Assembly (NCBI RefSeq): GCF_021462415.1 | Contig: NZ_JAKEDS010000001.1 | Span: 1,956,273-2,020,272, forward strand | Source of the DNA: Rhodohalobacter sp. 614A | GTDB taxonomy: Bacteria > Bacteroidota > Rhodothermia > Balneolales > Balneolaceae | Length of the DNA: 64,000 nucleotides | Direction of reading: 5' to 3' | Part shown: piece by piece, positions 267 through 17,137 of the stretch | Numbering within the stretch: position 1 is the first letter of the stretch | How the letters are laid out: every line of letters starts with the position of its first letter | Notes under the pieces: model-generated | The model's database searches: none | What the model saw: the letters and a program-made list of their open reading frames with translations, nothing else | What the model was told of the DNA's origin: nothing | Made by a program: the position numbers and the translations under genes

Positions 267-1775
267 TCAAAAAGGAGCCTCTTCATCATCGCCGCCGGGA
301 TTATGGGTTGGAGGAGGAAGTGATGATCCGTTGTCGGGTTCTGAAAGATAGTCATCACCACCGGGCCCACGGTCAATTCGTGATAAACGTTCAAATCGAG
401 CATACTCTTTCACGAAGAACATGCGTGTGGTTCCAACAGGTCCGTTACGTTGTTTCCCGATAATCAGTTCTGCCAAACCATTCGTGGATTCGCCTTCAGC
501 CGTAGTGGTAATTCCATAATATTCAGGCCTGTAAAGGAAGCAAACCACGTCGGCATCCTGCTCGATGGAGCCGGACTCACGAAGGTCACTCAACTGCGGA
601 CGTTTATCACCGCCGCGCTGTTCTACCGCACGGCTGAGCTGTGCAAGAGCGATTACCGGCACATTGAGTTCTTTTGCCAACGATTTTAAACCCCGGGAAA
701 TGGTGGCAATTTCCTGCTCACGATTTCCGATATCGCGAGAATTCGCGGTCATAAGCTGAAGGTAATCCACCACAATCAGGCCGATGTCATGTTCACTTTT
801 TAAGCGCCGACATTTTGTGCGAAGCTCCATCAGGCTCAGGCTGGGCGTATCATCAATAAAAATGCGAGCGGTAAAGAGGCGGCTCGCTGCATCAATCAAT
901 CGTTTAAAATCTTCGTCTTTCACGCGGCCGGTTCGGGCATCCTGCGCATTGATGCGGGCTTCCATAGTGAGGAATCTCTGAACCAGTTGCTGCGCCGACA
1001 TCTCAAGACTGAAAATGGCCACATTCGACTGCATATCTTCATTGGGATGAAGCGCTGCATTCCGGGCGGCCGTCAGTACAAAAGCCGTTTTACCCATGGA
1101 GGGACGTGCGGCAATAATGATCAAATCCCCATTTTGCCAGCCAGAAGTGAACTTATCTACGTCCAGCCCGGAAGGAACTCCCGTAACGCCTTCCGGTTTT
1201 CCGCGCAAATCTTCCAGGTATCCCAGCGTATCTTTCAGAATATCGCCGATAATGGTAGCGTTGGCGCGGGTTTTATTATTGGACAGATCAAAGATTCTCT
1301 GCTCCGCTTCGTCCAATACATCGGAGGCATCGGAGGTGGTATCATAAGCGGCTTTTATAATGTCATTGCAATGCAAAATCAGGTTTCGCTTGATTGCCTT
1401 TTCAGCAATAATCTGCGAATGATAATCGATGTTTGCAGCCGAACTAACTGATCGTGTCAGATCTGCGAGATAACCGGTTCCGCCTACCGTATCCAAGAGA
1501 TTTTTATCACGAAGCTCATTTTCTACGGTAAGCAGGTCAAGCGGGTTGTCCCGTTCGTAGAGTTCGAAAAGGGTTTCAAAAATGTGCTTGTTGGCCGGTT
1601 TGTAGAAATCTTCAGTCCGCAAAAGCTGAAGCGCAATGGTTGCCGCTTCCCGTTCGATGAGCATGGCCCCCAAAACAGCTTCTTCCACTTCCACAGCCTG
1701 GGGAGGAATCCGTCCTCCTTCATGTTGAAGAGACTGCGAACTGCCGGATGAATTAGACCCGTTTTGGTTGGGCAT
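267..1775 (-). CDS. dnaB: replicative DNA helicase DnaB
   Basis: This is the hexameric helicase that unwinds DNA ahead of the replisome and loads with primase. The 502 residues match the family length. An N-terminal DnaB domain (about residues 23-125, PPQAVEVEEAVLGAML) is followed by a linker and the RecA-like C-terminal ATPase. Walker A is ARPSMGKTA at about 223-231, Walker B is LIVVDYLQL at about 333-341, and the LAQLSRAVEQR motif lies at 377-387. The start at 1775 is followed by a low-complexity Ser/Gly/Asn N-terminus, and the acidic C-terminal tail ends in GGDDEEAPF. No intein is visible in the Walker regions. It is a single gene, with a spacer carrying DnaA-box-like sequences just upstream. 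Confidence 0.97.
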   Translation of the reverse strand: MPNQNGSNSSGSSQSLQHEGGRIPPQAVEVEEAVLGAMLIEREAATIALQLLRTEDFYKPANKHIFETLFELYERDNPLDLLTVENELRDKNLLDTVGGTGYLADLTRSVSSAANIDYHSQIIAEKAIKRNLILHCNDIIKAAYDTTSDASDVLDEAEQRIFDLSNNKTRANATIIGDILKDTLGYLEDLRGKPEGVTGVPSGLDVDKFTSGWQNGDLIIIAARPSMGKTAFVLTAARNAALHPNEDMQSNVAIFSLEMSAQQLVQRFLTMEARINAQDARTGRVKDEDFKRLIDAASRLFTARIFIDDTPSLSLMELRTKCRRLKSEHDIGLIVVDYLQLMTANSRDIGNREQEIATISRGLKSLAKELNVPVIALAQLSRAVEQRGGDKRPQLSDLRESGSIEQDADVVCFLYRPEYYGITTTAEGESTNGLAELIIGKQRNGPVGTTRMFFVKEYARFERLSRIDRGPGGDDYLSEPDNGSSLPPPTHNPGGDDEEAPF

Positions 1776-1890
1776 ATACTGCTTAATTTAAAAAATGAGA
1801 ATTGAATGGATTTGTCGGGACGTTTGAAATGAGCCTGCCGCTACTCAAAGAATAAAAAGTAAGAAATATGTGAGAAAATATTTTGACGAC

Positions 1891-1945
1891 TTATTAACAA
1901 AGGTATCCACAACTATCGATTAGTTATTAACAATGATGTGGATAA
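1891..1945. promoter_or_regulatory. cluster of DnaA-box-like sites upstream of dnaB
   Basis: TGTGGATAA at 1937-1945 is the exact complement of the consensus DnaA box TTATCCACA. GTATCCACA at 1903-1911 differs from it by one base. TTATTAACA occurs twice, at 1891-1899 and 1924-1932, as looser matches. The stretch is AT-rich and lies about 120-170 bases upstream of the dnaB start. It could let DnaA control dnaB or mark an initiation region. The motif match is seen; the function is inferred. Confidence 0.5.
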
Positions 1946-1982
1946 CTTTTACCAACAACAAGATCTTCTCTCCGTCACATAG

Positions 1983-2086
1983 AGCGCAATGGAGCAACAG
2001 CGGAATGAAGTCGAGAAGTAAACTATCAATAGTATGACGAGATCTCGACTTCCTTTTCGTTTACTTCGTTACACTCAAAGTGCGCT
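1983..2086. repeat. imperfect inverted intergenic repeat
   Basis: The left arm (1983-2016) begins AGCGCA and ends GAAGTCGAGA. The right arm (2043-2086) begins TCTCGACTTC and ends TGCGCT, so the arms are imperfect reverse complements around a 26-base loop. A related sequence (CGACTGCGTTTCGTTGTGC read on the minus strand) is found at about 39285-39330. It is probably a dispersed palindromic element of this genome. It lies between dnaB and the aldo/keto reductase. Confidence 0.5.
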
Positions 2087-2119
2087 TGATCTGACGAGTC
2101 CTGAAACCCGAACCTTGAC

Positions 2120-3106
2120 TCACCACCTTTGATGTACATGCGGTTTGATCATCTCTTCGTAGATATTATCTATTTCGGACATGATTTCATCTGCAATCGG
2201 AGGTGTTTCGGAAGCATCACAATTGGATTTTACATGTTTATCGGATGAAGCGCCGGGAATCCCCACGCTCACTTCGTCACGCATCAATGTCCAACGTAAA
2301 GCCAGCTGGACCAAATTTGTATTTGGACCGACAACCTCTTTCAATCGTTCCACAGCTTCCACTCCCGTTTCATAAGGAATGCCTGAAAAAGTCTCGCCCA
2401 CATCAAAGAATTTTCCTTCCCGGTTGAAATTGCGATGGTCTTTTTCATCAAACGTAGTGTCTTTAGAAAATTTGCCCGTCAGAAGTCCGCTGGCTAAAGG
2501 TACTCGAACGATAATTCCAACATTATTCTTTTGAGCTTTTGGAAACAGTTCTTCATGTGGCCGCTGCCTGAACATATTATAGATCACCTGGATGGTCGTC
2601 ACATTTTCATACTCAATGGCTTTCAATCCTTCTTCTATTTTTTCGATACTTACACCGAGATTCAGGATTTTTCCTTCTTCTTTTAGTTTCTCAAATTCTC
2701 CGAAAATTTCCGGCCGGTAATAAACCTCCGTCGGCGGGCAATGAAGCTGAACCAAATCAAGCACATCTACATCCAGACGTTTTAAAGAATCCTCGACATA
2801 CCCGCGAAGAGCTTTTGGCGTGTAATTTTCGTTGATATGAGGATTGATTTGCCGCCCGCACTTGGTGGCTACATAAATTCGTTGGTCTGCTTTTTTGATC
2901 GCCTTTCCAACCTCAATCTCACTTTCAGTGTCTTTGTACACATCAGCCGTGTCAATAAAATTAACACCATTTGCGAAGGCTTCCTCTAACGTTTTTTGAG
3001 CAGTTTCGGCATCAAGACTCTGTCCCCATTTACCTCCAAGCTGCCACGTTCCAAGGGAGATTTCAGAAATTTCAAAGCCGGTTTTACCTAATGTTCTATA
3101 TTTCAT
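2120..3106 (-). CDS. aldo/keto reductase
   Basis: This is a 328-residue NADPH-dependent carbonyl reductase of the AKR superfamily, YajO/IolS-like branch. The catalytic tetrad is visible: Asp and Tyr in NFIDTADVYKDTESE (about 50-64), Lys in YVATKCGR and His in LVQLHCPP. The C-terminal half carries the NADP-binding stretch (RWTLMRDEVSVGIPGAS). The substrate cannot be read from the sequence. It is transcribed alone, with a 270-base divergent promoter region shared with the histidine kinase. It is one of four full-length AKR genes in the window. Confidence 0.93.
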   Translation of the reverse strand: MKYRTLGKTGFEISEISLGTWQLGGKWGQSLDAETAQKTLEEAFANGVNFIDTADVYKDTESEIEVGKAIKKADQRIYVATKCGRQINPHINENYTPKALRGYVEDSLKRLDVDVLDLVQLHCPPTEVYYRPEIFGEFEKLKEEGKILNLGVSIEKIEEGLKAIEYENVTTIQVIYNMFRQRPHEELFPKAQKNNVGIIVRVPLASGLLTGKFSKDTTFDEKDHRNFNREGKFFDVGETFSGIPYETGVEAVERLKEVVGPNTNLVQLALRWTLMRDEVSVGIPGASSDKHVKSNCDASETPPIADEIMSEIDNIYEEMIKPHVHQRW

Positions 3107-3376
3107 AAACCTGTGTGTTCAATTATACTTTCTCATTAAAAGTAAACATTGTAAAATCGGTTATCATTTTCTTACTTGTTAATTTTTCTTGCTTATTTTG
3201 TAAACAGAGAGATGATTTTTCAATCAATTTCATAGAAATTATTGAGCGCAAATTGTGTGATTACAATTAGATATTGATAAAGTGGAACAAATCGATTTTA
3301 AAATTGTTAGTTCTACTTCAGTATGGGTACGGGTATGAATTCGAAGATTTGACTTTAAAAAGTTAAGTTACTGGTT

Positions 3377-5119
3377 ATGGGTAAACAAAAGATTGAGCAT
3401 CTTGAGATTTTCCTGAAATGTAACTTGGGTCTCGATGGGGTATTGAAGAGGGTTCCAACTCAGTTTTGTACATTTCTGGAGTACACCGAACAAGAACTAA
3501 AAACAGAACCGTTTTCCAAATGGGTGCACCCGAAGGATCAGGAAATATGGTCTGAGTTTTTTGGTAAAATTATCAGCGAAAAATCCGGTGATTTTGAATC
3601 AGAAATTTCCCTTCTGACAAAATCAGGTGATTCTGTATCTGTTTTTATATCCGGAATACTTATCCGGGATGAGAAAGGAAATGCAGATTACATTGCCTGT
3701 CACATTCAAAATCTTTCAAAGCAACTGAAGATTTTTCAAAAGCTGGAAGAAAGAGAACAACAATTCAACTCGCTTTTCAGGAATAATCCCCACCCCGTTT
3801 ACTATTTTGACGTTGAGGGCAATTTTGAAGGAGTAAATAATAAGCTGGTAGAATTTAGCGGGATTAGTGAGAAAGAATTACTCAGCAAAAGGTTTGAGGA
3901 TTTTATTCACGAAGATGACCTTGAACGAACGAAAAGACATTTCCAGAAAACGCTAGATGGAAGTTCGGGCCAATACGAAATCAAAGTAAAGGTTAAGGAT
4001 GGCGTAAAAAATATCCGGGTTACCAAGTTCCCCAAATATTCGGGAGATAACGTAGTGGGTGTTTTCGGTGTTTTCCAGGATATCACAAAAGAGAAGAAAA
4101 CAATACAAAAGGTTAAGGAGAGTGAAGAGCGCTGGCAGCAATTATTGCGGCAAAATCCGCAGCCGGTTCAAATTGTACAGGATGGAAAAATCGTTTATAT
4201 CAACCAGGCCGGAACAAGATATTACGGGGCCCGATCACTGAGTGAGCTTATCCGGAAGCCCATTATGGACTTTGTGCATAATGATGATGCAGAGAAAGTT
4301 TTAAAACGGAAAAAATTGCTTGAACAAAATCAGCATATAGCTCCGGCCGTGAATAAGATTGTGCTGCTCAATGGTGAACAAAGATATATTGAAGCGCACT
4401 CCATCCCGATTTCTTATAAAGGTAAACCTGCCATCCAAACCGTTGTTCACGACATTACGGATCTGAAGCAGAATCAGGAAATGATCGGGAAATCTCTAAA
4501 AGAAAAAGAGACTCTTCTGAAAGAGATTCATCACCGGGTAAAGAATAATCTGGCGATGATTTCATCCATGCTCGAGCTTCAGATCATGCAGTCCACGGAT
4601 CAATCTGCAACAAATGCCCTTCGGGACAGCCAGCTTCGGATTCGTTCCATTGCCATGATACATGAGAAGCTCTATCAAAACGAATCACTTTACGGCATAC
4701 GGTTCGATAATTATCTGAAAGAATTGGTTGATACCATCAAGCAAACCTACCTTACATCCGGGAGAGAGGTCGACGTATTTCTTGATCTTGATTCAATATC
4801 ACTTGATATCAACCAGGTTATTCCATGTTCTTTGATTGTAAATGAGGTGGTGGTCAATTCTTTTAAACATGCTTTCAACGGTATGCAAAAAGGAGCTCTC
4901 CGGATTTTAATGAATTCTGAAGATTCCAACATTGATTTAGTTATTTCTGATGACGGCCTCGGTCTTCCCGAAAATTTTGATATGCATAAACAACAATCCC
5001 TGGGCATGACTCTGATTGACGCCCTATCCAATCAACTCGAGGGAAGGGTTAGTTTTCATGAAGGTGCTGACGGAACCGGAACTGTTTTTCGCCTGCGATT
5101 CAAGAAAAAGGCGGATTAG
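3377..5119 (+). CDS. PAS-domain sensor histidine kinase (HisKA_2 family)
   Basis: This is a soluble signal-transducing kinase of 580 residues. Three PAS folds occupy about 10-115, 128-238 and 250-365 (GVFQDITKEKK and VVHDITDLKQ mark the ends of the second and third). The dimerisation/phosphoacceptor segment contains EIHHRVKNNL at 383-392, typical of HisKA_2 kinases, with His386 the likely phosphate acceptor. The HATPase_c domain has an N box (NEVVVNSFKHAF, about 489-500), DDGLGL at 525-530 and SLGMTLI at 541-547. No transmembrane segment or signal peptide is visible, so the cue is probably cytoplasmic. No response regulator is adjacent, making it an orphan kinase. Confidence 0.93.
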   Translation: MGKQKIEHLEIFLKCNLGLDGVLKRVPTQFCTFLEYTEQELKTEPFSKWVHPKDQEIWSEFFGKIISEKSGDFESEISLLTKSGDSVSVFISGILIRDEKGNADYIACHIQNLSKQLKIFQKLEEREQQFNSLFRNNPHPVYYFDVEGNFEGVNNKLVEFSGISEKELLSKRFEDFIHEDDLERTKRHFQKTLDGSSGQYEIKVKVKDGVKNIRVTKFPKYSGDNVVGVFGVFQDITKEKKTIQKVKESEERWQQLLRQNPQPVQIVQDGKIVYINQAGTRYYGARSLSELIRKPIMDFVHNDDAEKVLKRKKLLEQNQHIAPAVNKIVLLNGEQRYIEAHSIPISYKGKPAIQTVVHDITDLKQNQEMIGKSLKEKETLLKEIHHRVKNNLAMISSMLELQIMQSTDQSATNALRDSQLRIRSIAMIHEKLYQNESLYGIRFDNYLKELVDTIKQTYLTSGREVDVFLDLDSISLDINQVIPCSLIVNEVVVNSFKHAFNGMQKGALRILMNSEDSNIDLVISDDGLGLPENFDMHKQQSLGMTLIDALSNQLEGRVSFHEGADGTGTVFRLRFKKKAD

Positions 5120-8858: not shown

Positions 8859-9377
8859 CTATTCAGTTCCGCTATTCCCGGGAATTTCAGCTCGACGCTG
8901 ACCCAATTCTTGGTCCAGCATATAAAGACCGGGACCTTTTTCCCCAAGAATATTCAGTTTGTCTAAAATGGTGCGGAAAAGATCTTCTTCTTCCACTTGT
9001 TCGTCCACATACCACTGAAGGAACTGATCGGTGGCGTGGTCTTTCTCCTCTTTTGCAGCCTCAACAAGTACGTTGATTTTTCGGGTATTTTCTTGTTCCA
9101 GTTCCAATCCGCGTTCAAAAAGATGGCGAATTGAATCAAACTCGCTGTCCGGTTTGGCGATTGACGGAGCGATGGCATGGCCATCACGATCATTCACATA
9201 ATGGAAGATTTTCATCGCATGAAAATGCTCTTCTTTCGACTGTTCCAGGAAAAAACTGGCGGTTCCGTGGAAACCATTTACTTCAGCCCAGGAAGACATC
9301 GATAAGTACCAATTTCCTGCTTCAAACTCGTGTTGAACCTGATCGTTCAGCAATGATTCAATTTTTTCAGAAAGCAT
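8859..9377 (-). CDS. ftnA: bacterial non-haem ferritin
   Basis: This iron-storage protein forms a 24-subunit cage that oxidises Fe(II) and stores it as ferrihydrite. The 172 residues are the usual length. Ferroxidase ligands can be placed at Glu17 (VQHEFEAGNWYLSMSSW), Glu50 and His53 (KEEHFHAMK) and in the third and fourth helices (VEAAKEEKDHATDQFLQWY). No haem-binding or N-terminal extension is seen. The gene stands alone on the minus strand with a short promoter gap to the aldo/keto reductase downstream in coordinates. Confidence 0.95.
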   Translation of the reverse strand: MLSEKIESLLNDQVQHEFEAGNWYLSMSSWAEVNGFHGTASFFLEQSKEEHFHAMKIFHYVNDRDGHAIAPSIAKPDSEFDSIRHLFERGLELEQENTRKINVLVEAAKEEKDHATDQFLQWYVDEQVEEEDLFRTILDKLNILGEKGPGLYMLDQELGQRRAEIPGNSGTE

Positions 9378-9471
9378 ATTTTAACTCTTAAATTTTAAGA
9401 TCTTGTACGCCAGAAAGATACAATAGAATCCAGAGAACACCAGTATTCCAGAGCACTTTCAGCCGTGTATT

Positions 9472-10506
9472 CTATTCGTTGGACCCAGGAATTCGATCTG
9501 AATCCTGACGATCGACCATCCAGAAAGGATAGCGTTTGGTCGTTGAAGAAACTTTATTTAATTCACTCAACTCATCATCAGTTAAATCTACATTTGTTGA
9601 ATTGATATTCGACTCAAGCTGAGTAATGTTTTTTGTCCCGATGATGGTACTGGTCACGCCCGATTGTAACCGAACCCAGGCAAGAGCCACTTCAGCTACA
9701 GAGCAATCCTGGTTCTCTGCAATTTCTTCCATCACATCTACAATATCGTAGGTTTGTTCTTTATTGATGGGAGGGAAGTCGAATTCATCGCGTCGGGAAC
9801 CGCCGCCGGCTTTTTCATTATCCCGGGTGTATTTTCCGGAAAGAAATCCGCCAGCAAGTGGGCTCCACGGCATGAATCCAAGTTTTTCAGACTGACTCAA
9901 TGGAATCAATGCGTCCTCTGCATCACGCCCTGATAGAGAATAGAAATATTGCATGGCTTTAAATTCATGCCATCCTTCCTGCCGAGCAATTCCGAGGGCT
10001 TTCATCACCATCCAAGCCGGCCAATTACAAACGCCTACATAACGGACTTTGCCGCTTTCCACAATATCATTCAATCCACGCATGATTTCTCTGATGGACG
10101 TAACGGAATCCACGCCATGTACATAGAGAAGATCGATATGGTCTAATTGTAATCTGTTTAAACTTTTTTCAACAGAATTGAAAATGTGATATCGGGAAAG
10201 TCCCTGGTTATTGGGTTGATCTCCCATTTTTCCACGGAGCTTGGTTGCAATGACCAGCTCATCGCGGTTTAAATCAAGATTTTTAATACTGTTTCCGAGA
10301 ATCGTTTCCGATTGACCAAACGAATAGACATTGGCTGTATCGATAAAATTAATTCCGGAATCCACTGATTTCTTGATCAGTTCATCCGCTTCACCCTGTT
10401 GCTGTTTTCCAACATGTTCCCACATCCCTTCGCCTCCAAACGTCATGGTTCCAAAACAAAGTTCGGAGACAAGCAGGCCGGTATTACCTAATAAATTGTA
10501 TTTCAT
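9472..10506 (-). CDS. aldo/keto reductase
   Basis: This 344-residue AKR has the tetrad residues in FIDTANVYSFGQSE (Asp, Tyr), VIATKLRG (Lys) and LLYVHGVD (His). The FGTMTFGGEGMWEHVG start and the C-terminal NADP-binding SGVTSTIIGTKNITQLESN are typical of the AKR11/12-like group. The substrate is unknown. It is the last ordinary chromosomal gene before the AT-rich island that begins near 10.7 kb. It is probably monocistronic. Confidence 0.93.
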   Translation of the reverse strand: MKYNLLGNTGLLVSELCFGTMTFGGEGMWEHVGKQQQGEADELIKKSVDSGINFIDTANVYSFGQSETILGNSIKNLDLNRDELVIATKLRGKMGDQPNNQGLSRYHIFNSVEKSLNRLQLDHIDLLYVHGVDSVTSIREIMRGLNDIVESGKVRYVGVCNWPAWMVMKALGIARQEGWHEFKAMQYFYSLSGRDAEDALIPLSQSEKLGFMPWSPLAGGFLSGKYTRDNEKAGGGSRRDEFDFPPINKEQTYDIVDVMEEIAENQDCSVAEVALAWVRLQSGVTSTIIGTKNITQLESNINSTNVDLTDDELSELNKVSSTTKRYPFWMVDRQDSDRIPGSNE

Positions 10507-10690
10507 CTGTACTTCTTTTTTGTTGAATGTTAGCTGATATCAAAACATATAAACAAGAGAAAGTGTTCATTTCCCTTTATCATAGTTCCTACTTAAAAGA
10601 GTCTTCAAAATTCAGAAAATGTTAAAATATTGATCAATAGCGGAAAGGGAAGACACTACGTTGTTATGTAGTTTTTAAATTCGGGATTTA

Positions 10691-10720
10691 TTGTTTAATT
10701 GGAGGGAAGTACTATTTTTA
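10691..10720 (+). promoter_or_regulatory. candidate promoter for the left end of the island
   Basis: TTG at 10691-10693 and TATTTTTA at 10713-10720, separated by 19 bases, fit the Bacteroidota-type promoter pattern (TTG, N19, TAnnTTTG) with one mismatch. Transcription would begin inside the 30-bp repeat that holds the ribosome site and start codon of the next gene. It lies outside the putative invertible segment, so it would drive whichever gene is attached to the left repeat. Confidence 0.35.
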
Positions 10721-10721
10721 A

Positions 10722-10751
10722 TGAAGGATAACTATTAATTATCATGCCTAA
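10722..10751 (+). repeat. left copy of a perfect 30-bp inverted repeat (putative inversion site)
   Basis: The 30 bases from 10722 to 10751 are the exact reverse complement of 16147-16176. The repeat starts TGAAGGATAACTATT, includes a GAAGGA ribosome site, the ATG at 10744 and the next five bases (CCTAA). Inside it GATAA (10727-10731) and TTATC (10739-10743) form inverted arms around a 7-bp asymmetric centre CTATTAA, the geometry of a tyrosine-recombinase crossover site. Confidence 0.85.
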
Positions 10752-11448
10752 AATGTTTGAAGAGAGTAGTAATAAAAAAGTAGGGAAAAGTAACGTTTTA
10801 ATTATATCATTACATGCTGATCCGATAGAGCCTAGTGGTAGTGGAGAAGGAGGAGGAACCCATTCTTATATTCGCGAGCTTCTTCGGCGCTTAGCGTATG
10901 AATCTAGGTATGCAAGCGTTGTAACAAGACATATTGATATTAAGCTGCCTGTATTTCAACGACTTTCAGACTATACCTCCATATATCGAATAAAGTTGGG
11001 AAAAATTGAACCCATGGATAAGCGTTTTTTAAATAAATATCACGACCTTTCTGTACAATTGATTAAAGAAATCATTAAAGAACTTCATTGGAAAGTAAAT
11101 ATATTGCAAGGAGTATATTGGTATTCTGGATATACGGCCATGACACTCTCAAAAGAATTGTCTATCCCCTTTGTTCAAACTGTTATTTCAAATGGAAAAA
11201 GAAAGCGAAGTGAAGGCTGCCTAGATGATGATACTGAGCGAATTCTGGTAGAGAAAGAAATTTACGATAATGCTTCTGCAATTTTCTGCATTTCAGGAGA
11301 AGAAAAAAAGGATTTAAGAGAGCTATACAAAATCGATTCTAGCAAATTAGTTGTGGTAGGAAGGCCAGTACCTCTTCCTTTCCTCGAGTATATATATAAT
11401 TCTGATAAAACACCTAGATATATAAATTTAATTAACCATATAAATTGA
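10744..11448 (+). CDS. glycosyltransferase, N-terminal half (5' part of a split gene)
   Basis: The 234 residues form the N-terminal half of a GT-B fold glycosyltransferase of the GT4 type: LIISLHADPIEPSGSGEGGGTHSYIRE opens with the glycine-rich loop of the acceptor domain, and ASAIFCISGEEKKDLRELY followed by VVVGRPVP is the usual end of that domain. The reading frame stops at 11446-11448, and the donor-binding half continues at once in the -1 frame. Both parts together (about 808 residues) look like one enzyme. Base composition is visibly more AT-rich than in neighbouring chromosomal genes, with many ATA and AGA codons. The start codon lies inside the left 30-bp repeat. Confidence 0.8.
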   Translation: MPKMFEESSNKKVGKSNVLIISLHADPIEPSGSGEGGGTHSYIRELLRRLAYESRYASVVTRHIDIKLPVFQRLSDYTSIYRIKLGKIEPMDKRFLNKYHDLSVQLIKEIIKELHWKVNILQGVYWYSGYTAMTLSKELSIPFVQTVISNGKRKRSEGCLDDDTERILVEKEIYDNASAIFCISGEEKKDLRELYKIDSSKLVVVGRPVPLPFLEYIYNSDKTPRYINLINHIN

Positions 11449-13169
11449 GTTCTCCAAAAATAGATCAGATTCTAAGATGGTACTCGAATCGAGCTTATAT
11501 CTATTTTGGTCGTTTAGCACCATCAAAAGGACTAGATATTATCCTCAAATCTTGGATTAGACTTGCTAAGGATAATCCTAATTCCTGTCCGCCCATTTGG
11601 ATAATTGGTGGAACACCAAAAGAGATCGTTAAGATTAAAAAATATTCTGGAATTAATAATGAGATAGATCTATATGAAAACCAAAAAAAAATCATATGGT
11701 GGGGATACATAGATCAAAAAGGAATAAGTACGATCTTATCAAAGGCATTAGTATTAGTCACCCATTCCCGTTATGAACCAGGAGGAAGGGTAATTTTAGA
11801 AGCGATGAGTAGAGGTGTACCAGTAATAGCAACCCCTCATGGGTTTGCTTGTGATTTAGTTGCTGATTGGATTTCGGGTTTTATAGTTAACTATGAAGAT
11901 ATACACATGCTTCAAAACCGTATGTCGCTATTCTTTAAGCAACCTTTTTTAACCCAGGCATTAGGAGAAAGAGCTAGATATATTGCTAAAGAAAAAATAA
12001 AAGAATGGGATTTTTATAATCGCCATTTTCAAACTTATGATGCTATAGTGACTGATAGGCCCCTTCAAATTAGTTCAAACTCAAATTTATTGCATGATTT
12101 TGAGCCTATATATAAACGTAGATTTGTGCGTTTATTCGGCGACAAAGGTGAGTTTGATAATTCTTCTGATCTAGTATTGAAATGGGCAGACTCAATTGTT
12201 GGTCCCATTAAGTCTTTAAACGCTCAAAAGGTAAACGGTAAGTCTCAGGCTTGGATTGCTAATGGTGAAAAGGACTCCATTTGGATTAAAAAAATCCATA
12301 ATCATTTTTGTATGACCCCAATCTGGTTGCCAGAAGGTACTTCTCAGTACTGCCACTCAGCTCTACAGAAATTCAAGAGTGAGATATATAACAAAAATGA
12401 AAGCTTGATTAGGACCATCGCATCGAATAAGGATTATTTGTTAGTTGCATTTCCTATATATCGAGCACTTCCTATTGTTTATCAAACTCATAATATTATT
12501 GAAATTTATAAAAGACCTCTTAAAAATTTGGCTAATAATTCTAGGATTGAAAATGAGGTAGATTTAGAATCGATAGTTAAAAAGTGTATCTCTTCTTATG
12601 AAAATTTTGATATAAAAAAAACCAATAAATTACTTGGATCTACTTTACTCAATAAAATTTCACCTACTCCAATAGACTATCGATTTAGTATTAGAATTTA
12701 TCTTATATATCTAATGAAAGCGGCAAGCAATGAATCTATATTGGTTCCTCAATCTATGAATGCAGAATTCATCAGACTATATTCCAAACTTAAAATCTTA
12801 GCGGAATGTGAAGAAAAAATGCCAATAGTACTAAACCATAATGCCGCTAAACCTCATCATTTTGTTCAATCTGATAGAAGGATTATACTAATAGATAAAG
12901 AACGCCTTTCCTTTGGTTTTATGGGAAAAGATGGCGGTCAACTAATAGCTAATTTAGCTCAAGAATATAGCTATGAACAACTCAAACGAACTCTGAATAT
13001 ATTCTCTGACTCAGACGAAGAAAAAATTATTATAGCTATTTGGATAGGAGTACATTTAATAGAAGAAGCGGGATTTTCCTTGGCGTGTGAACAAAACAAC
13101 AAACTCAAGAAAATAATTTATGCTTGGAATCATTGGTATCGATATATATCAACTACCCTGTTACCATAA
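11445..13169 (+). CDS. glycosyltransferase, C-terminal half, with a kinase-like C-terminal domain (3' part of a split gene)
   Basis: The 574 residues start (TTG) by overlapping the previous stop. The first 200 residues are the GT4 donor domain: YIYFGRLAPSKGLDII (18-33), WIIGGTP, then the E-x7-E motif in RYEPGGRVILEAMSRGVPVIATP (Glu111, Glu119). The rest is unusual. A region near residue 460-490 (LNHNAAKPHHF, then IILIDKERLSFGF) resembles a degenerate aminoglycoside-phosphotransferase-type kinase loop. The frame-0 stop at 11433 leaves only about 12 bases in which the two frames can join, so this is either a frameshifted gene or a TTGA-coupled pair. It runs 17 bases into the 3' end of the convergent STAND gene. 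Confidence 0.75.
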   Translation: MSSPKIDQILRWYSNRAYIYFGRLAPSKGLDIILKSWIRLAKDNPNSCPPIWIIGGTPKEIVKIKKYSGINNEIDLYENQKKIIWWGYIDQKGISTILSKALVLVTHSRYEPGGRVILEAMSRGVPVIATPHGFACDLVADWISGFIVNYEDIHMLQNRMSLFFKQPFLTQALGERARYIAKEKIKEWDFYNRHFQTYDAIVTDRPLQISSNSNLLHDFEPIYKRRFVRLFGDKGEFDNSSDLVLKWADSIVGPIKSLNAQKVNGKSQAWIANGEKDSIWIKKIHNHFCMTPIWLPEGTSQYCHSALQKFKSEIYNKNESLIRTIASNKDYLLVAFPIYRALPIVYQTHNIIEIYKRPLKNLANNSRIENEVDLESIVKKCISSYENFDIKKTNKLLGSTLLNKISPTPIDYRFSIRIYLIYLMKAASNESILVPQSMNAEFIRLYSKLKILAECEEKMPIVLNHNAAKPHHFVQSDRRIILIDKERLSFGFMGKDGGQLIANLAQEYSYEQLKRTLNIFSDSDEEKIIIAIWIGVHLIEEAGFSLACEQNNKLKKIIYAWNHWYRYISTTLLP

Positions 13170-15162
13170 TTTTATTTCCATGAACATGTGATGTTTCGGA
13201 AAGAAATTTTTTAGGCCATTTTTTATTTCGTAAGTATTGCAGATCTTTTCTGAGTTGAATTATTTGAGTTTTTGCTACTAGTTCATCAGCAAGTTCTCTT
13301 TCGTCTACTAGATCCAATGAGCATAATATTGAAAGCAGCCCTGCATACCATCTTTGACGATACAGCGATTCATTATCAAATCTATTCTTGCGCGGTTCAG
13401 TAATTAAATGATAAGCATCCAATGCATTTTGTATTGTGACATCTTTTTTGTTTAACTCTGCAAAAATTGCCGCTGCGTTTGTTTTCATTCTCCATAGGAA
13501 TCGAAAATAAAAGCTCTTTTCCGCAGTGAAAGTGGCCAGCTCTATTTGGTTAGCTGCTGCAGAAATTTTTTTATCCACCCAATAACAGCAAGCTAAGATA
13601 TTCCTAGCACGTGCCTCTTGGGTCTCAAATCCATTTGACAAAGAATTGGCTACGGCATTTTCGGCATGTACTGTAGCATCCGTATATTTTTTTATCAGAA
13701 AGTGTGCCATAGCTATATCTACTTTTACATGTAGCATAGTAAGTAATGATGCCTCAGCATCATTTTCTAACAAAATCCGAATCTTTTTATAAAAAGAAAG
13801 TGATCTTTCGGGATTACTACCGAGATAATTGGCAGCAAGATTTGAATATCTTTGTACTTTTAGCTCTAAATTTTCTGGAATTTTTTTTACTGCCTTATCA
13901 TACACAGCTTGAGCATGTTCTTTCTTTCCTAATCCTTTTTTGGTAAGTGCTAAAGAAGACCAAATCGAAGCTTGTATTTTTTTATCAGTTTTTGTGATTA
14001 ATCTTTCCAGTAATTCCGCAATGTCGTTAGCTTCTTGAAATTGCTCAAGTAGAAAATATCGTTTCCACTTTAGGAGTAAAAATTTTGCTTTCAAAGATTC
14101 ATTTTCAATGAGTTCTGGTGTCAAAGTAATATGAGTCTCAAGGGCGGCTAGTTTTCCTTTATTCCGGTCAAGTTGTATTCTATTACGTAATTCTTCAACT
14201 TTAAGAAGTCCTAGTAATGAGTGGCAAATATGTTTTTCACGATCAACTATTTCATTTTGATATAGTTCAGCGGCATTATAAGCTACTTCCCACATTTCGC
14301 TCGCTAAACTCATTTGTCCTTCCTTAAGATATTCATCTGCGCAATGAGAGGCTTGGTCAAAAGCTTCCTCTAAATCTCCAGCAGTAAGGGACAGACTTGC
14401 AACAAGATTCTGTTTATGAAGATCTTCGTATGAAAAGTCTAAGACTAGTTTTTTCAATTTATTTGAAATTTCTGCGGTAAGAAAAGGATTGTCATCCGAT
14501 ACAGTTGAAATACATTCTTTTAATAAATCATGACGAATTCGTAAAGAAGGAAAAGTCGAGAAATTCTTTACAAACAAGCCTGTTTGTAGAAGCTTATCCG
14601 CCAAAATATTTCCGTTTTGAGTTGAAGTTATATGGCCTAAGAAGCCTAAGGGCAATTCACCTTTTAGAAGACCAGCCGCTAATATCACATATCTATATGC
14701 TGCGTTTTTGTGATGTACCCAAAAATCAATATGGCTTCTAACTACTGTTATAGCTTTTTCAGGAGTAATTCCTTCAAAAAAAACTTCGAGATTTGATATA
14801 GAAGTATATGTCCCAGATGAAAGGGTGACTATTTTGCGGTTTTTTAACCAATGGCAAGTAGTTTCAATAAGAAAAGGGTTCATTCCGATTCGCTTGAGGA
14901 TGACTTTGGCTCTCTTGCTTCCCAAACCAGGTAGCCAATATTCTACAAATTCAATCCCGTCATTTTCATTTAATTCGGGTACTTTTAATTGTTGCAGTGT
15001 TGTTGACCTTTGTAAAATATTCTGAAAAGAAATCCAGTCTGAGGGAGAGGTTTTAACAGCAGAACCATCAGTTCTTAATTCGAGCAAACTTACACAATAT
15101 GGTTCTATTTTATTTATAACAGCAACTAAAAAATCTAATACCTCAGAAGTAGATTTGTTCAA
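13153..15162 (-). CDS. STAND-type ATPase, C-terminal part with TPR repeats (3' part of a split gene)
   Basis: The 669 residues continue the gene at 15174-16154 in another frame. The first third looks like the rest of a STAND/AAA-type ATPase with winged-helix region (GIEFVEYWLPGLG, KRIGMNPFLIETTCHWL). From about residue 240 on the protein is helical, with TPR-like units (AQAVYDKAVKKIPENLELKVQR, ALLERLITKT-type repeats). The frame stays open upstream of the TTG start, and those codons read LLIFENL, a good Walker B sequence, which shows the true protein is continuous with the upstream frame. STAND proteins with N-terminal nucleases are known anti-phage sensors. AT-rich like the rest of the island. 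Confidence 0.75.
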   Translation of the reverse strand: MNKSTSEVLDFLVAVINKIEPYCVSLLELRTDGSAVKTSPSDWISFQNILQRSTTLQQLKVPELNENDGIEFVEYWLPGLGSKRAKVILKRIGMNPFLIETTCHWLKNRKIVTLSSGTYTSISNLEVFFEGITPEKAITVVRSHIDFWVHHKNAAYRYVILAAGLLKGELPLGFLGHITSTQNGNILADKLLQTGLFVKNFSTFPSLRIRHDLLKECISTVSDDNPFLTAEISNKLKKLVLDFSYEDLHKQNLVASLSLTAGDLEEAFDQASHCADEYLKEGQMSLASEMWEVAYNAAELYQNEIVDREKHICHSLLGLLKVEELRNRIQLDRNKGKLAALETHITLTPELIENESLKAKFLLLKWKRYFLLEQFQEANDIAELLERLITKTDKKIQASIWSSLALTKKGLGKKEHAQAVYDKAVKKIPENLELKVQRYSNLAANYLGSNPERSLSFYKKIRILLENDAEASLLTMLHVKVDIAMAHFLIKKYTDATVHAENAVANSLSNGFETQEARARNILACCYWVDKKISAAANQIELATFTAEKSFYFRFLWRMKTNAAAIFAELNKKDVTIQNALDAYHLITEPRKNRFDNESLYRQRWYAGLLSILCSLDLVDERELADELVAKTQIIQLRKDLQYLRNKKWPKKFLSETSHVHGNKIMVTG

Positions 15163-15173
15163 GTTTTCAAAAA

Positions 15174-16154
15174 TTAAGAGAAAGCTTCGACGATATCGTA
15201 TGATTGATGAGCTCCTATAGCCATTTCAAGTATTTTTATAATACTTTTTTTATTCTTGCTATAAGTAGAATTAATTAACCGCAAATCAATGCTTGTAATC
15301 TGTTCAAATACAGTAAAAAAAAGTTGATTTACTGTACTCATAAATGACATATCAATAGAAGCAATACGTTTACTATCAGTAAGTGAATTAATAGCATGAC
15401 TTAACAAAAAACTTTTTCCTACGCCTGATCCTCCTTCTAATACAGCTATTCCAGCCTCTGAACTTATGCATTGAATCAAATCCTCTACAAAAAGCTGACG
15501 TTTTTGGCCTATAATGGGTTCTAAATCAACAGATTCTTCAGAGATTATAATTTCACATGGTAGCAAAGAACCATTTTTATTTGTACCTATTGAGAGTTCA
15601 GCCTTTATTCTTGAGTTAGTATTTGCATAAAGATCTAATTGAAAAGTTCTTTGTTTCTCTGATTTATTTTGACTTATAGTCACCCAATTCAAAAGCTCTT
15701 GTGAAAAACCCATTGACTCAAGTCGGTGATATTCATTTTTTACCCACGTCGCCATAGCAATGCCATCAATAAGTCTGACCTGCATGTGGGTGGCTTGGGC
15801 AAATCTTGCCACTTCTCGAAAAGCTTGAGGAGAAAAAAGTTGATTTGAAGTTATAATAAGAGCACCAGCTGCATTACTATGTGCTATCACAAGCGTTGCA
15901 GCAAATGTTCTTAAACCAATTTTTTTTTTCGTTGAACTTAGTTTTGCTTCTAATAAGACTTTAAATGTCAAGTCCAAACTATTTTCATTTCCTAATTGGA
16001 AATGAGCAGCTGCATCATATCCTCCATCACCCTTAGCAGGGGTAAGATGGAGAAGAGTGGGTTCCATCTTAAATTGTTCCTTGATTAACTCTACGCTAAG
16101 CTCTTCAAACTCTCTCCAATATTTCTCCGCCTTTGATTTTACTTTCTTAGGCAT
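15174..16154 (-). CDS. Mrr-like nuclease domain plus STAND P-loop (5' part of a split gene)
   Basis: The 326 residues begin with a restriction-endonuclease-like (Mrr/PD-(D/E)xK) domain: KYWREFEELSVELIKEQF is the usual first helix, DGGYD (43-47) and EAK (69-71) supply catalytic Asp, Glu and Lys. A P-loop follows, GGSGVGKS at 241-248, at the start of an ATPase domain. The frame then breaks at 15174, just before Walker B. Joined with the next frame the protein would have about 1000 residues in the order nuclease-STAND-TPR, an architecture like AVAST-type defence proteins. The start codon lies inside the right 30-bp repeat and follows the recombinase gene stop by 35 bases. Confidence 0.8.
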   Translation of the reverse strand: MPKKVKSKAEKYWREFEELSVELIKEQFKMEPTLLHLTPAKGDGGYDAAAHFQLGNENSLDLTFKVLLEAKLSSTKKKIGLRTFAATLVIAHSNAAGALIITSNQLFSPQAFREVARFAQATHMQVRLIDGIAMATWVKNEYHRLESMGFSQELLNWVTISQNKSEKQRTFQLDLYANTNSRIKAELSIGTNKNGSLLPCEIIISEESVDLEPIIGQKRQLFVEDLIQCISSEAGIAVLEGGSGVGKSFLLSHAINSLTDSKRIASIDMSFMSTVNQLFFTVFEQITSIDLRLINSTYSKNKKSIIKILEMAIGAHQSYDIVEAFS

Positions 16155-16176
16155 GATAATTAATAGTTATCCTTCA
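16147..16176 (-). repeat. right copy of the perfect 30-bp inverted repeat (putative inversion site)
   Basis: This is the exact reverse complement of 10722-10751. On the minus strand it carries the leader, GAAGGA ribosome site, ATG (16152-16154) and next five bases of the nuclease-STAND gene. The 7-bp centre (16160-16166) is flanked by GATAA and TTATC arms. It ends 14 bases from the stop codon of the tyrosine recombinase gene. Confidence 0.85.
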
Positions 16177-16189
16177 CTCACCTAACTAT

Positions 16190-17137
16190 TTATGCCAACC
16201 TCAACCGATTCCTCGGATGGTTTTTTGCCAAAATTTCTTTCTGTTTTTTGTTGCTGACGTGGGTATAAATTTGAGTCGTCATGATAGAACTGTGCCCCAG
16301 GATTTTTTGGATGTATTTGATATCGACTCCTTCTTCAAGAAGCATGGTGGCAAAGGTGTGGCGGAAGGAATGGGGCGTAACGGTTTTACGAATCGTTGTT
16401 TCGGCGACATACTTTTTGAGCATAAATCTGACGGATTGGGTGGAGAGAGGTTTTTGAAGCCGATTCAGAAAAAAATAGCCACATTTCTTAGATCGGAGAG
16501 GTAAGGAGATCTTGTGGTATTCTTCCAAGGCATTCAAAAGTTCTGGATTGCAGAGCTGGATGATTCGCTCTTTACTTCCTTTTCCATTCACCTTAATAAA
16601 TCCCCGGCTTAAGTCAATATTGGAGCATTTTAAACTGCAAAGTTCTCCGACCCGAATGCCGGTGGCAAATAGAAGTTCAAGAATGGCTATGTCCCGTATG
16701 ATAGTTTTGTAAAAATAGGACTCCTGATTCTTCGCTTTTTTTTTTCGTTTGTAAAGAACATTAAAAATTTTCTGTATCTCTTTGAGATCCAAAACAACAG
16801 GAAGATGAAAAGGTTCTTTCAAGTGTAGCCTTACCTTTCGGAATGGGTTTGAAAAAATGACATCATCGAATTCCAGATAGTTAAAAAAAGCTTTTACGGT
16901 AGCTACCTTTCTTTTGACCGATTTGATGGCATATTTTTTGGTCAGATGAGCTACATAGGACTTGATCTCTTGTTTGCCAATGTCCGTGATTTCCCATGAT
17001 TTTACAGTTCTTTTTGTTAAGAATTTTTTGAACTGACGGAGGTCAATTTGATAGGCTTTGAGCGTTTTGGGGCTAAGGTTTTTTTCGTATTTGCAGTGTG
17101 AGAGAAATTCGGAGGTTCGTAAGTCTATGTCCTTCAT
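16190..17137 (-). CDS. tyrosine recombinase (XerC/XerD-like)
   Basis: This site-specific DNA recombinase has 315 residues. An N-terminal SAM-like core-binding domain (about 6-90, FLSHCKYEKNLSPKTLKAYQ) precedes the catalytic domain. The catalytic residues are all present: Arg162 (ATGIRVGELCSL), a lysine in the NGKGSKER hairpin, His256 and Arg259 (PHSFRHTFA), His282 (ILGHSS) and Tyr291 (QIYTHVS). It looks intact and functional. Its position, next to the right 30-bp repeat, suggests it acts on those repeats rather than at chromosomal dif. A 15-bp inverted repeat overlaps its start codon and may regulate it. It could otherwise be an island integrase. Confidence 0.92.
   Translation of the reverse strand: MKDIDLRTSEFLSHCKYEKNLSPKTLKAYQIDLRQFKKFLTKRTVKSWEITDIGKQEIKSYVAHLTKKYAIKSVKRKVATVKAFFNYLEFDDVIFSNPFRKVRLHLKEPFHLPVVLDLKEIQKIFNVLYKRKKKAKNQESYFYKTIIRDIAILELLFATGIRVGELCSLKCSNIDLSRGFIKVNGKGSKERIIQLCNPELLNALEEYHKISLPLRSKKCGYFFLNRLQKPLSTQSVRFMLKKYVAETTIRKTVTPHSFRHTFATMLLEEGVDIKYIQKILGHSSIMTTQIYTHVSNKKQKEILAKNHPRNRLRLA

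Follow-up and report, generated by a model that had tools for sequence, protein, structure and literature searches.

Does the 5.4-kb segment at positions 10722–16176 of a 64,000-nt stretch of the Rhodohalobacter sp. 614A genome (contig NZ_JAKEDS010000001.1, positions 1,956,273 to 2,020,272; hereafter, the window) invert, thereby swapping which of its two genes stands behind the left promoter? A first-pass annotation, made from the sequence alone, had proposed so. The window indeed displays the anatomy of a gene-swapping inversion switch, that is, two inverted sites, two convergent genes between them and an adjacent recombinase gene. On the basis of the comparisons described below, we consider it likely that this is a switch that works by site-specific inversion and whose cargo can be exchanged, in which the adjacent Xer-like recombinase would act on GGATAA-N7-TTAT sites. 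For the family of related loci, comparative sequence data render the invertible-switch reading well supported; for this organism, we infer from them the flipping itself, its catalysis by this recombinase, the gene that would be on in each state and the function.

The two arms of the repeat, at 10722–10751 (+ strand) and 16147–16176 (− strand), are exact reverse complements of 30 bp each, as initially reported. No second inverted repeat in the region is perfect, whatever its length; the remaining listed pairs are 70–88% complementary. The 23-bp core of the repeat is expected 0 times by chance (100 shuffles). A search of the 4.69-Mb genome with up to 3 mismatches allowed, which the first-pass annotation had recommended, retrieved only two copies of the 30-mer, both at the cassette ends. 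Each arm contains the ATG and first codons of one cargo gene, a glycosyltransferase (GT) gene on the left and an Mrr-type nuclease/STAND ATPase (Mrr-STAND) gene on the right, and both proteins start with MPK. Comparison within the family places the left recombination site at 10726–10743 on the + strand, where it reads GGATAA-CTATTAA-TTATC, two arms on either side of a 7-bp spacer (10732–10738). The core site of the right arm maps to 16155–16172. The sequence is that of a putative Xer-like site. When viral contigs were searched with AGGATAACTANTAATTAT, the single match fell inside a phage coding gene and was dismissed as chance.

Only 13 bp separate the right repeat from the stop codon of the recombinase gene (16190–17137, − strand), which is read toward the right site and is intact, as the earlier annotation had it. 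The 315-aa product, the presumed invertase of the cassette, was classified with Pfam, NCBIfam and a tree: it carries the PF00589 (Phage_integrase, E 2.5e-42) and PF02899 (SAM-like N-terminal, E 3.9e-15) domains, and the HSFRHTFA, LGHSS and Y291 regions are kept in its three closest relatives. By these sequence features it is an Xer-like tyrosine recombinase. Assignment as the XerC/XerD chromosome-dimer resolvase was rejected, given scores below the NCBIfam equivalog cut-offs (260.5 versus 329.6 bits for XerD; 257.8 versus 335.15 bits for XerC) and a quick tree in which the family recombinases all lie on one side of the branch leading to 13 XerC/XerD-type proteins. An integron was likewise discarded on the basis of the TIGR02249 score (121.9 bits versus a cut-off of 265) and of sites that are inverted, not direct.

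To place the locus among its relatives, a profile derived from a three-sequence recombinase alignment was run over ~85,000 species genomes. The scan yielded 80 loci from Bacteroidota and their relatives, Bacillota and Campylobacterota, which together with the plasmid and window loci amount to 88 recombinase loci. Exact inverted repeats of at least 17 bp lie next to the recombinase in 36 of these 88 loci versus 1 of 114 control stretches, and ATAA-N6-8-TTA is present in 33 of the 36 recombinase-adjacent repeats. In about 30 relatives, a recombinase of this clade adjoins two GGATAA-N7-TTAT sites in inverted orientation, which enclose two genes that are usually convergent; the hosts belong to Bacteroidota (Balneolaceae and others), Bacillota (Lachnospiraceae and others) and Campylobacterota, and plasmids of Streptococcus and Aliarcobacter are represented as well. 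Cultured carriers include Lachnospiraceae bacterium 3-2, with the pair of the window, Maribellus maritimus 5E3 and Anaerorhabdus furcosa (Thoeris pair), and Prolixibacteraceae bacterium JC049. The genes are convergent in 19 of the 23 distinct loci with paired sites (manual count), and 19 different 7-bp spacers occur among 24 loci. Two more Bacteroidota loci, picked by the recombinase alone, also revealed sites and convergent pairs; in some family members, a site lies upstream of the recombinase. The pairing of the window is not a one-off; it belongs to a family that extends across at least three bacterial phyla and comprises many such exchangeable pairs.

Within the host family, recombinase relatives at 68–69% identity were found in two other genera (G032 and G099; here and below, G and L numbers designate genomes or loci of the comparison). 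Both loci share one chromosomal position, with GAPDH on one side and an M28 peptidase on the other, genes that are directly adjacent in recombinase-free genomes (L168, L170, L174, L176). The recombinase is followed by AGGATAA-CTAGTAA-TTAT in G032 and by AGGATAA-CTAGGGA-TTAT in G099, with an inverted copy of each 1.8–2.5 kb off. The cargo consists of an EamA-like transporter gene facing a methyltransferase gene in G032 (both tentatively read from the sequence) and of eroded genes in G099.

Related genomes were compared for orientation, as the first-pass annotation had advised, and the same pair was found both ways round. In the window, as in two Lachnospiraceae loci (L114 and L119), Mrr-STAND adjoins the recombinase, whereas GT does so in a third (L116); L114 and L116 are 83% identical across 5.4 kb, with the orientation reversed. 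Other pairs were also seen both ways round with respect to the recombinase, namely a Thoeris-like SIR2/TIR pair (L070 versus L074 and L165), an ATP-grasp/STAND pair (L150 versus L151) and the c18/c70 pair (L095 versus L100). In the isolate assembly of Lachnospiraceae bacterium 3-2 (L114), both cassette ends are joined to the same recombinase-bearing 1.9-kb flank, forming a 1,906-bp perfect inverted repeat (1717–3622 and 9000–10905) whose second copy runs out into Ns at a scaffold gap. The two junctions part exactly at GATAATAAGAAATTATC, and the simplest reading of this assembly is that both orientations were probably present in the DNA.

The ends of assembled contigs point in the same direction. 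Of the 41 contig ends that lie downstream of the recombinase and no more than 7.9 kb from it, 20 are at most 200 nt from its stop codon, versus ~1 expected if they were uniformly distributed; several contigs of relatives end at the site itself, and in L100, L102 and L137 the final base of the contig is precisely that of the distal repeat. For contigs to fork at a repeat that does not reach the usual k-mer length, the repeat must have two different continuations, as would arise if the population contained inverted or exchanged cassettes. The proposal of an invertible two-gene segment, run by the adjacent recombinase and flipped without damage to the gene starts, thus gains strong comparative support from the recurrent architecture, the occurrence of both orientations and the L114 junctions, but the cargo that it would invert is not intact here.

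The two cargo genes lie tail to tail between the arms, as first described, but each is split into two open reading frames (ORFs). Pfam identifies the left one (10744–13169, + strand; ORFs 10744–11448 and 11445–13169) as a GT4-type glycosyltransferase (Glyco_transf_4 and Glycos_transf_1) with a C-terminal extension, and the right one (13153–16154, − strand; ORFs 16154–15174 and 15162–13153) as an Mrr-type nuclease/P-loop/TPR protein of the STAND ATPase type. Undisrupted homologues of 789–799 aa (GT) and 985–1023 aa (Mrr-STAND) are encoded at the three Lachnospiraceae loci (L114, L116 and L119). Relative to them, the window STAND gene is ~115–121 nt short between the Walker A and Walker B motifs (248 versus 363–369 nt), and the GT gene is ~16–28 nt short between flanking motifs (149 versus 165–177 nt); neither deletion is a multiple of three, and both change the frame. 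Simple one-base sequencing errors were rejected as the origin of the two breaks. The genes neighbouring the cassette are intact and give complete domain matches, which renders a generally error-prone assembly unlikely. The alignments therefore suggest that GT and Mrr-STAND were probably broken by real internal deletions and that the cargo of the window is probably inactive.

The Mrr_cat domain of the broken gene is still recognizable (PF04471, E 1.1e-7), with the conserved D and E-x-K residues (GYD..EAK) that are also kept in the three homologues, and its sequence is that of an Mrr-type nuclease. Searches with the Mrr-STAND half returned no relatives among 98 relatives, plasmids and viral contigs, those with the GT half returned generic glycosyltransferases only, and a GT profile run against 394 genomes of the phylum matched this genome alone. 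An AlphaFold model of GT built from five sequences was poor (mean predicted local distance difference test score, pLDDT, of 50). The C-terminus of GT in L114 and L116 may contain an aminoglycoside-phosphotransferase-like motif (NHGGFDYKN..LLDNE), by a tentative reading. The initial designation of GT as a surface-sugar gene is not supported.

How would such a locus work? In the mechanism that we propose, the recombinase would cut at the 7-bp spacer of the two inverted sites and flip the segment between them. The two convergent genes of the segment would bring their own starts, with the promoters standing outside the sites, and each flip would swap the gene behind the outer (left) promoter with the gene behind the recombinase gene. 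Now and then, the whole pair would be replaced by another at the same sites. The presumed promoter of the left-hand gene would reside in the intergenic left flank (10507–10721, + strand), which extends from a divergent aldo/keto reductase gene to the left site and contains a Bacteroidota-type promoter-like match, TTG-N19-TATTTTT, at 10691–10719. The left promoter invoked in the original proposal has a candidate, yet a weak one, arising in 10% of shuffles and in ~3% of the 220-bp stretches of the window. At L116, TTGAAA-N17-TAATAT was read by eye, unscored, outside the distal site.

On the other side, terminator-like hairpins between the recombinase and the site were detected in 12 of the 23 loci with room for one versus 8 of 115 shuffles, which suggests that the recombinase transcript is often shut off from the proximal gene. 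Where this holds, the distal gene would be expressed, and the proximal one silent or expressed at a low level. The window lacks such a gap between recombinase and site, and hence transcription of the recombinase gene would continue into its proximal neighbour, at present Mrr-STAND.

Besides flipping, replacement of whole pairs is evident among the relatives. Five Streptococcus plasmids encode recombinases that are 96–100% identical and share the same sequence up to the ribosome site, beyond which three unrelated gene pairs follow: a methyltransferase with an uncharacterised protein, a polyprenyl synthetase with an uncharacterised protein, and a serine hydroxymethyltransferase-like protein with a STAND-TPR protein. 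These are closed plasmids of Streptococcus salivarius and S. equinus (L153–L157) and constitute a natural series of pairs exchanged precisely at the sites. Similarly, the recombinase genes of L076 and L077 are identical at 915 of 915 nt, and the two sequences part right after the site, with a different first gene in each. Both are metagenome bins, assigned to Melioribacteraceae and Chloroherpetonaceae, respectively, which indicates misbinning or recent transfer. Conversely, the recombinases beside the four GT/Mrr-STAND pairs are not each other's closest relatives in a quick tree. At L079 and L097, the site just past the recombinase stop codon is a complete palindrome, GGATAA-N7-TTATCC, whose complementary arms extend further, and no partner site was found; these are possibly empty platforms.

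Several observations weigh against an inversion switch. The cargo of three loci is non-convergent, and in most recombinase loci no paired site was seen, in many of them because the contig ends. Site partners were found by exact match, and the spacer identity within a pair is thus partly selected. The inverted repeat in L114 may reflect a genuine duplication or faulty scaffolding, the contig breaks could stem from mixed strains with different cassettes, and the orientation evidence derives from relatives, not from inverted reads or strains of the window species. Furthermore, with its cargo broken, any switch in the window may no longer matter. This last point is the core of one alternative, to which we assign a rather low probability, namely that the segment was once inverted or integrated by the recombinase and that the locus is now static, with its cargo decaying. 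The frame-breaking internal deletions in both cargo genes, as well as the eroded cargo of G099, agree with such a relic, whereas the intact recombinase and the still identical 30-bp arms do not.

The leading rival, which we deem possible while leaning against it, is that the locus serves mainly to capture and swap promoterless convergent pairs, inversion being a by-product rather than regulation; the inverted convergent design would let a cassette work in either orientation. This would explain the unrelated pairs within identical flanks on the Streptococcus plasmids, the different cargo of G032 and G099 at one locus, the different first genes beside the identical recombinases of L076 and L077, and the recurrence of a given pair next to recombinases that are not each other's closest relatives. 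Thoeris, moreover, requires both its genes, and its presence in L070 fits poorly with strictly exclusive expression; strict either/or expression may therefore not hold everywhere. Regulation by inversion is nonetheless favored by the hairpins at 12 of 23 loci, which suggest an insulated proximal gene, and by the apparent coexistence of both orientations in one isolate (L114). It is very improbable that the repeats instead belong to an integrated element or a transposon, as its attachment sites or terminal repeats: a tyrosine recombinase does adjoin one repeat and the GAPDH–M28 insertion occurs in only some genomes, but the repeats are inverted rather than direct, the recombinase lies outside them, the genome holds no further copy and the orientation differs between relatives. 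Ends of an insertion sequence were also considered and rejected. Least probable of all, to a degree that we regard as negligible, is an explanation that dispenses with site-specific recombination, the leader being shared by coincidence or through gene conversion; the repeat does cover the start codon region, where conversion could be selected, but no such repeat is expected by chance, no copy exists on non-flanking genes, and the core site recurs beside homologous recombinases in several phyla, next to unrelated genes.

Conflict-type proteins occur in many pairs (Thoeris ThsA/ThsB, TIR, STAND or TPR proteins, and Mrr-type nucleases), with glycosyltransferases, ATP-grasp ligases, small kinases and methyltransferases among their partners; TIR/kinase is one such combination. 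PADLOC identified the L070 pair as Thoeris, with ThsA (SIR2-STALD) at 1e-98 and ThsB (TIR) at 9e-10; the window does not contain the ThsA and ThsB combination. Thoeris or Thoeris-like genes lie beside the recombinase, tail to tail in the cassette, in L070, L074, L133 and L165 (PADLOC on L070 only); in L133, the TIR gene alone is visible before the contig end, and L165 (MT835475.1) was deposited as 'Bacteriophage sp.', with its SIR2/TIR cassette and recombinase amid bacterial-looking genes. A polyprenyl synthetase with an uncharacterised protein of 330–371 aa recurs in Bacteroidetes, Lachnospiraceae and Streptococcus plasmids (L067, L102, L154, L156). L126 and L135 are two loci of one Lachnospiraceae genome with near-identical recombinases; one has a large nuclease-like gene by the recombinase and glycosyltransferases far away, and the other is reversed. 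The pairs of L125 and L163, in turn, read by eye, combine a membrane protein with an FAD-type protein and have no obvious link to defence, and 'defence' is thus not a label for the whole family.

Inversions that alternate two genes have precedents. In Lactobacillus acidophilus, slpA and slpB face each other and share their 5' region, and inversion changes which of them is behind the promoter. Unlike the cargo pairs of the present family, these are two related S-layer genes, with no swappable-cassette family known. The slpB gene has been described as silent (PMC6015585). In Ureaplasma, one of two genes at a time is expressed as DNA between short inverted repeats, located close to the starts of the genes, changes orientation, as reported for mba/UU376 and UU172 (PMC3047005). 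The window would resemble this system in that inversion swaps which of two genes is expressed, whereas the Ureaplasma genes are surface antigens of one family, genus-specific and without exchangeable unrelated pairs. The PsrA/hsdS system of Streptococcus pneumoniae combines a tyrosine recombinase with inverted repeats for inversion in a type I restriction locus (PMC7096588, PMC4948785), but recombination occurs there between hsdS genes, whereas the window would flip whole genes, without hsdS. Accordingly, a type I restriction hsdS shufflon was rejected, the cargo being GT and Mrr-STAND. Integrons also exchange promoterless cargo at defined sites by means of an Xer-related recombinase; the window differs in its inverted sites, its two-gene convergent cargo and a recombinase that scores far under the integron-integrase cut-off. 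A systematic survey of gene-altering programmed inversions has reportedly been published by Milman et al. 2023 (Nucleic Acids Res.), which may include members of the family. In the literature covered, which did not extend to that survey, we found no prior description of such a family; it appears to be undescribed so far, and priority is uncertain.

A broader proposal, for and against which we find the case evenly poised, is that these loci are portable invertible two-gene cassettes, often defence-like and spread across phyla, whose resident recombinase exchanges the pairs among strains and flips them, so that the expressed partner alternates, i.e., a phase-variable modular conflict or immune locus. 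Such pairs would include Thoeris, GT/Mrr-STAND, TIR/kinase and ATP-grasp/STAND. Recombinases are frequent beside anti-phage genes, their role there being called unknown in one report (PMC12529663). The family offers a concrete, testable role, in which a recombinase flips and swaps two-gene, often defence-like cassettes. Its recurring pairs nominate, through guilt by association, new two-gene systems, for example GT with Mrr-STAND, ATP-grasp with STAND, and polyprenyl synthetase with an uncharacterised protein of 330–370 aa, and inversion could be measured at once in existing cultured isolates.

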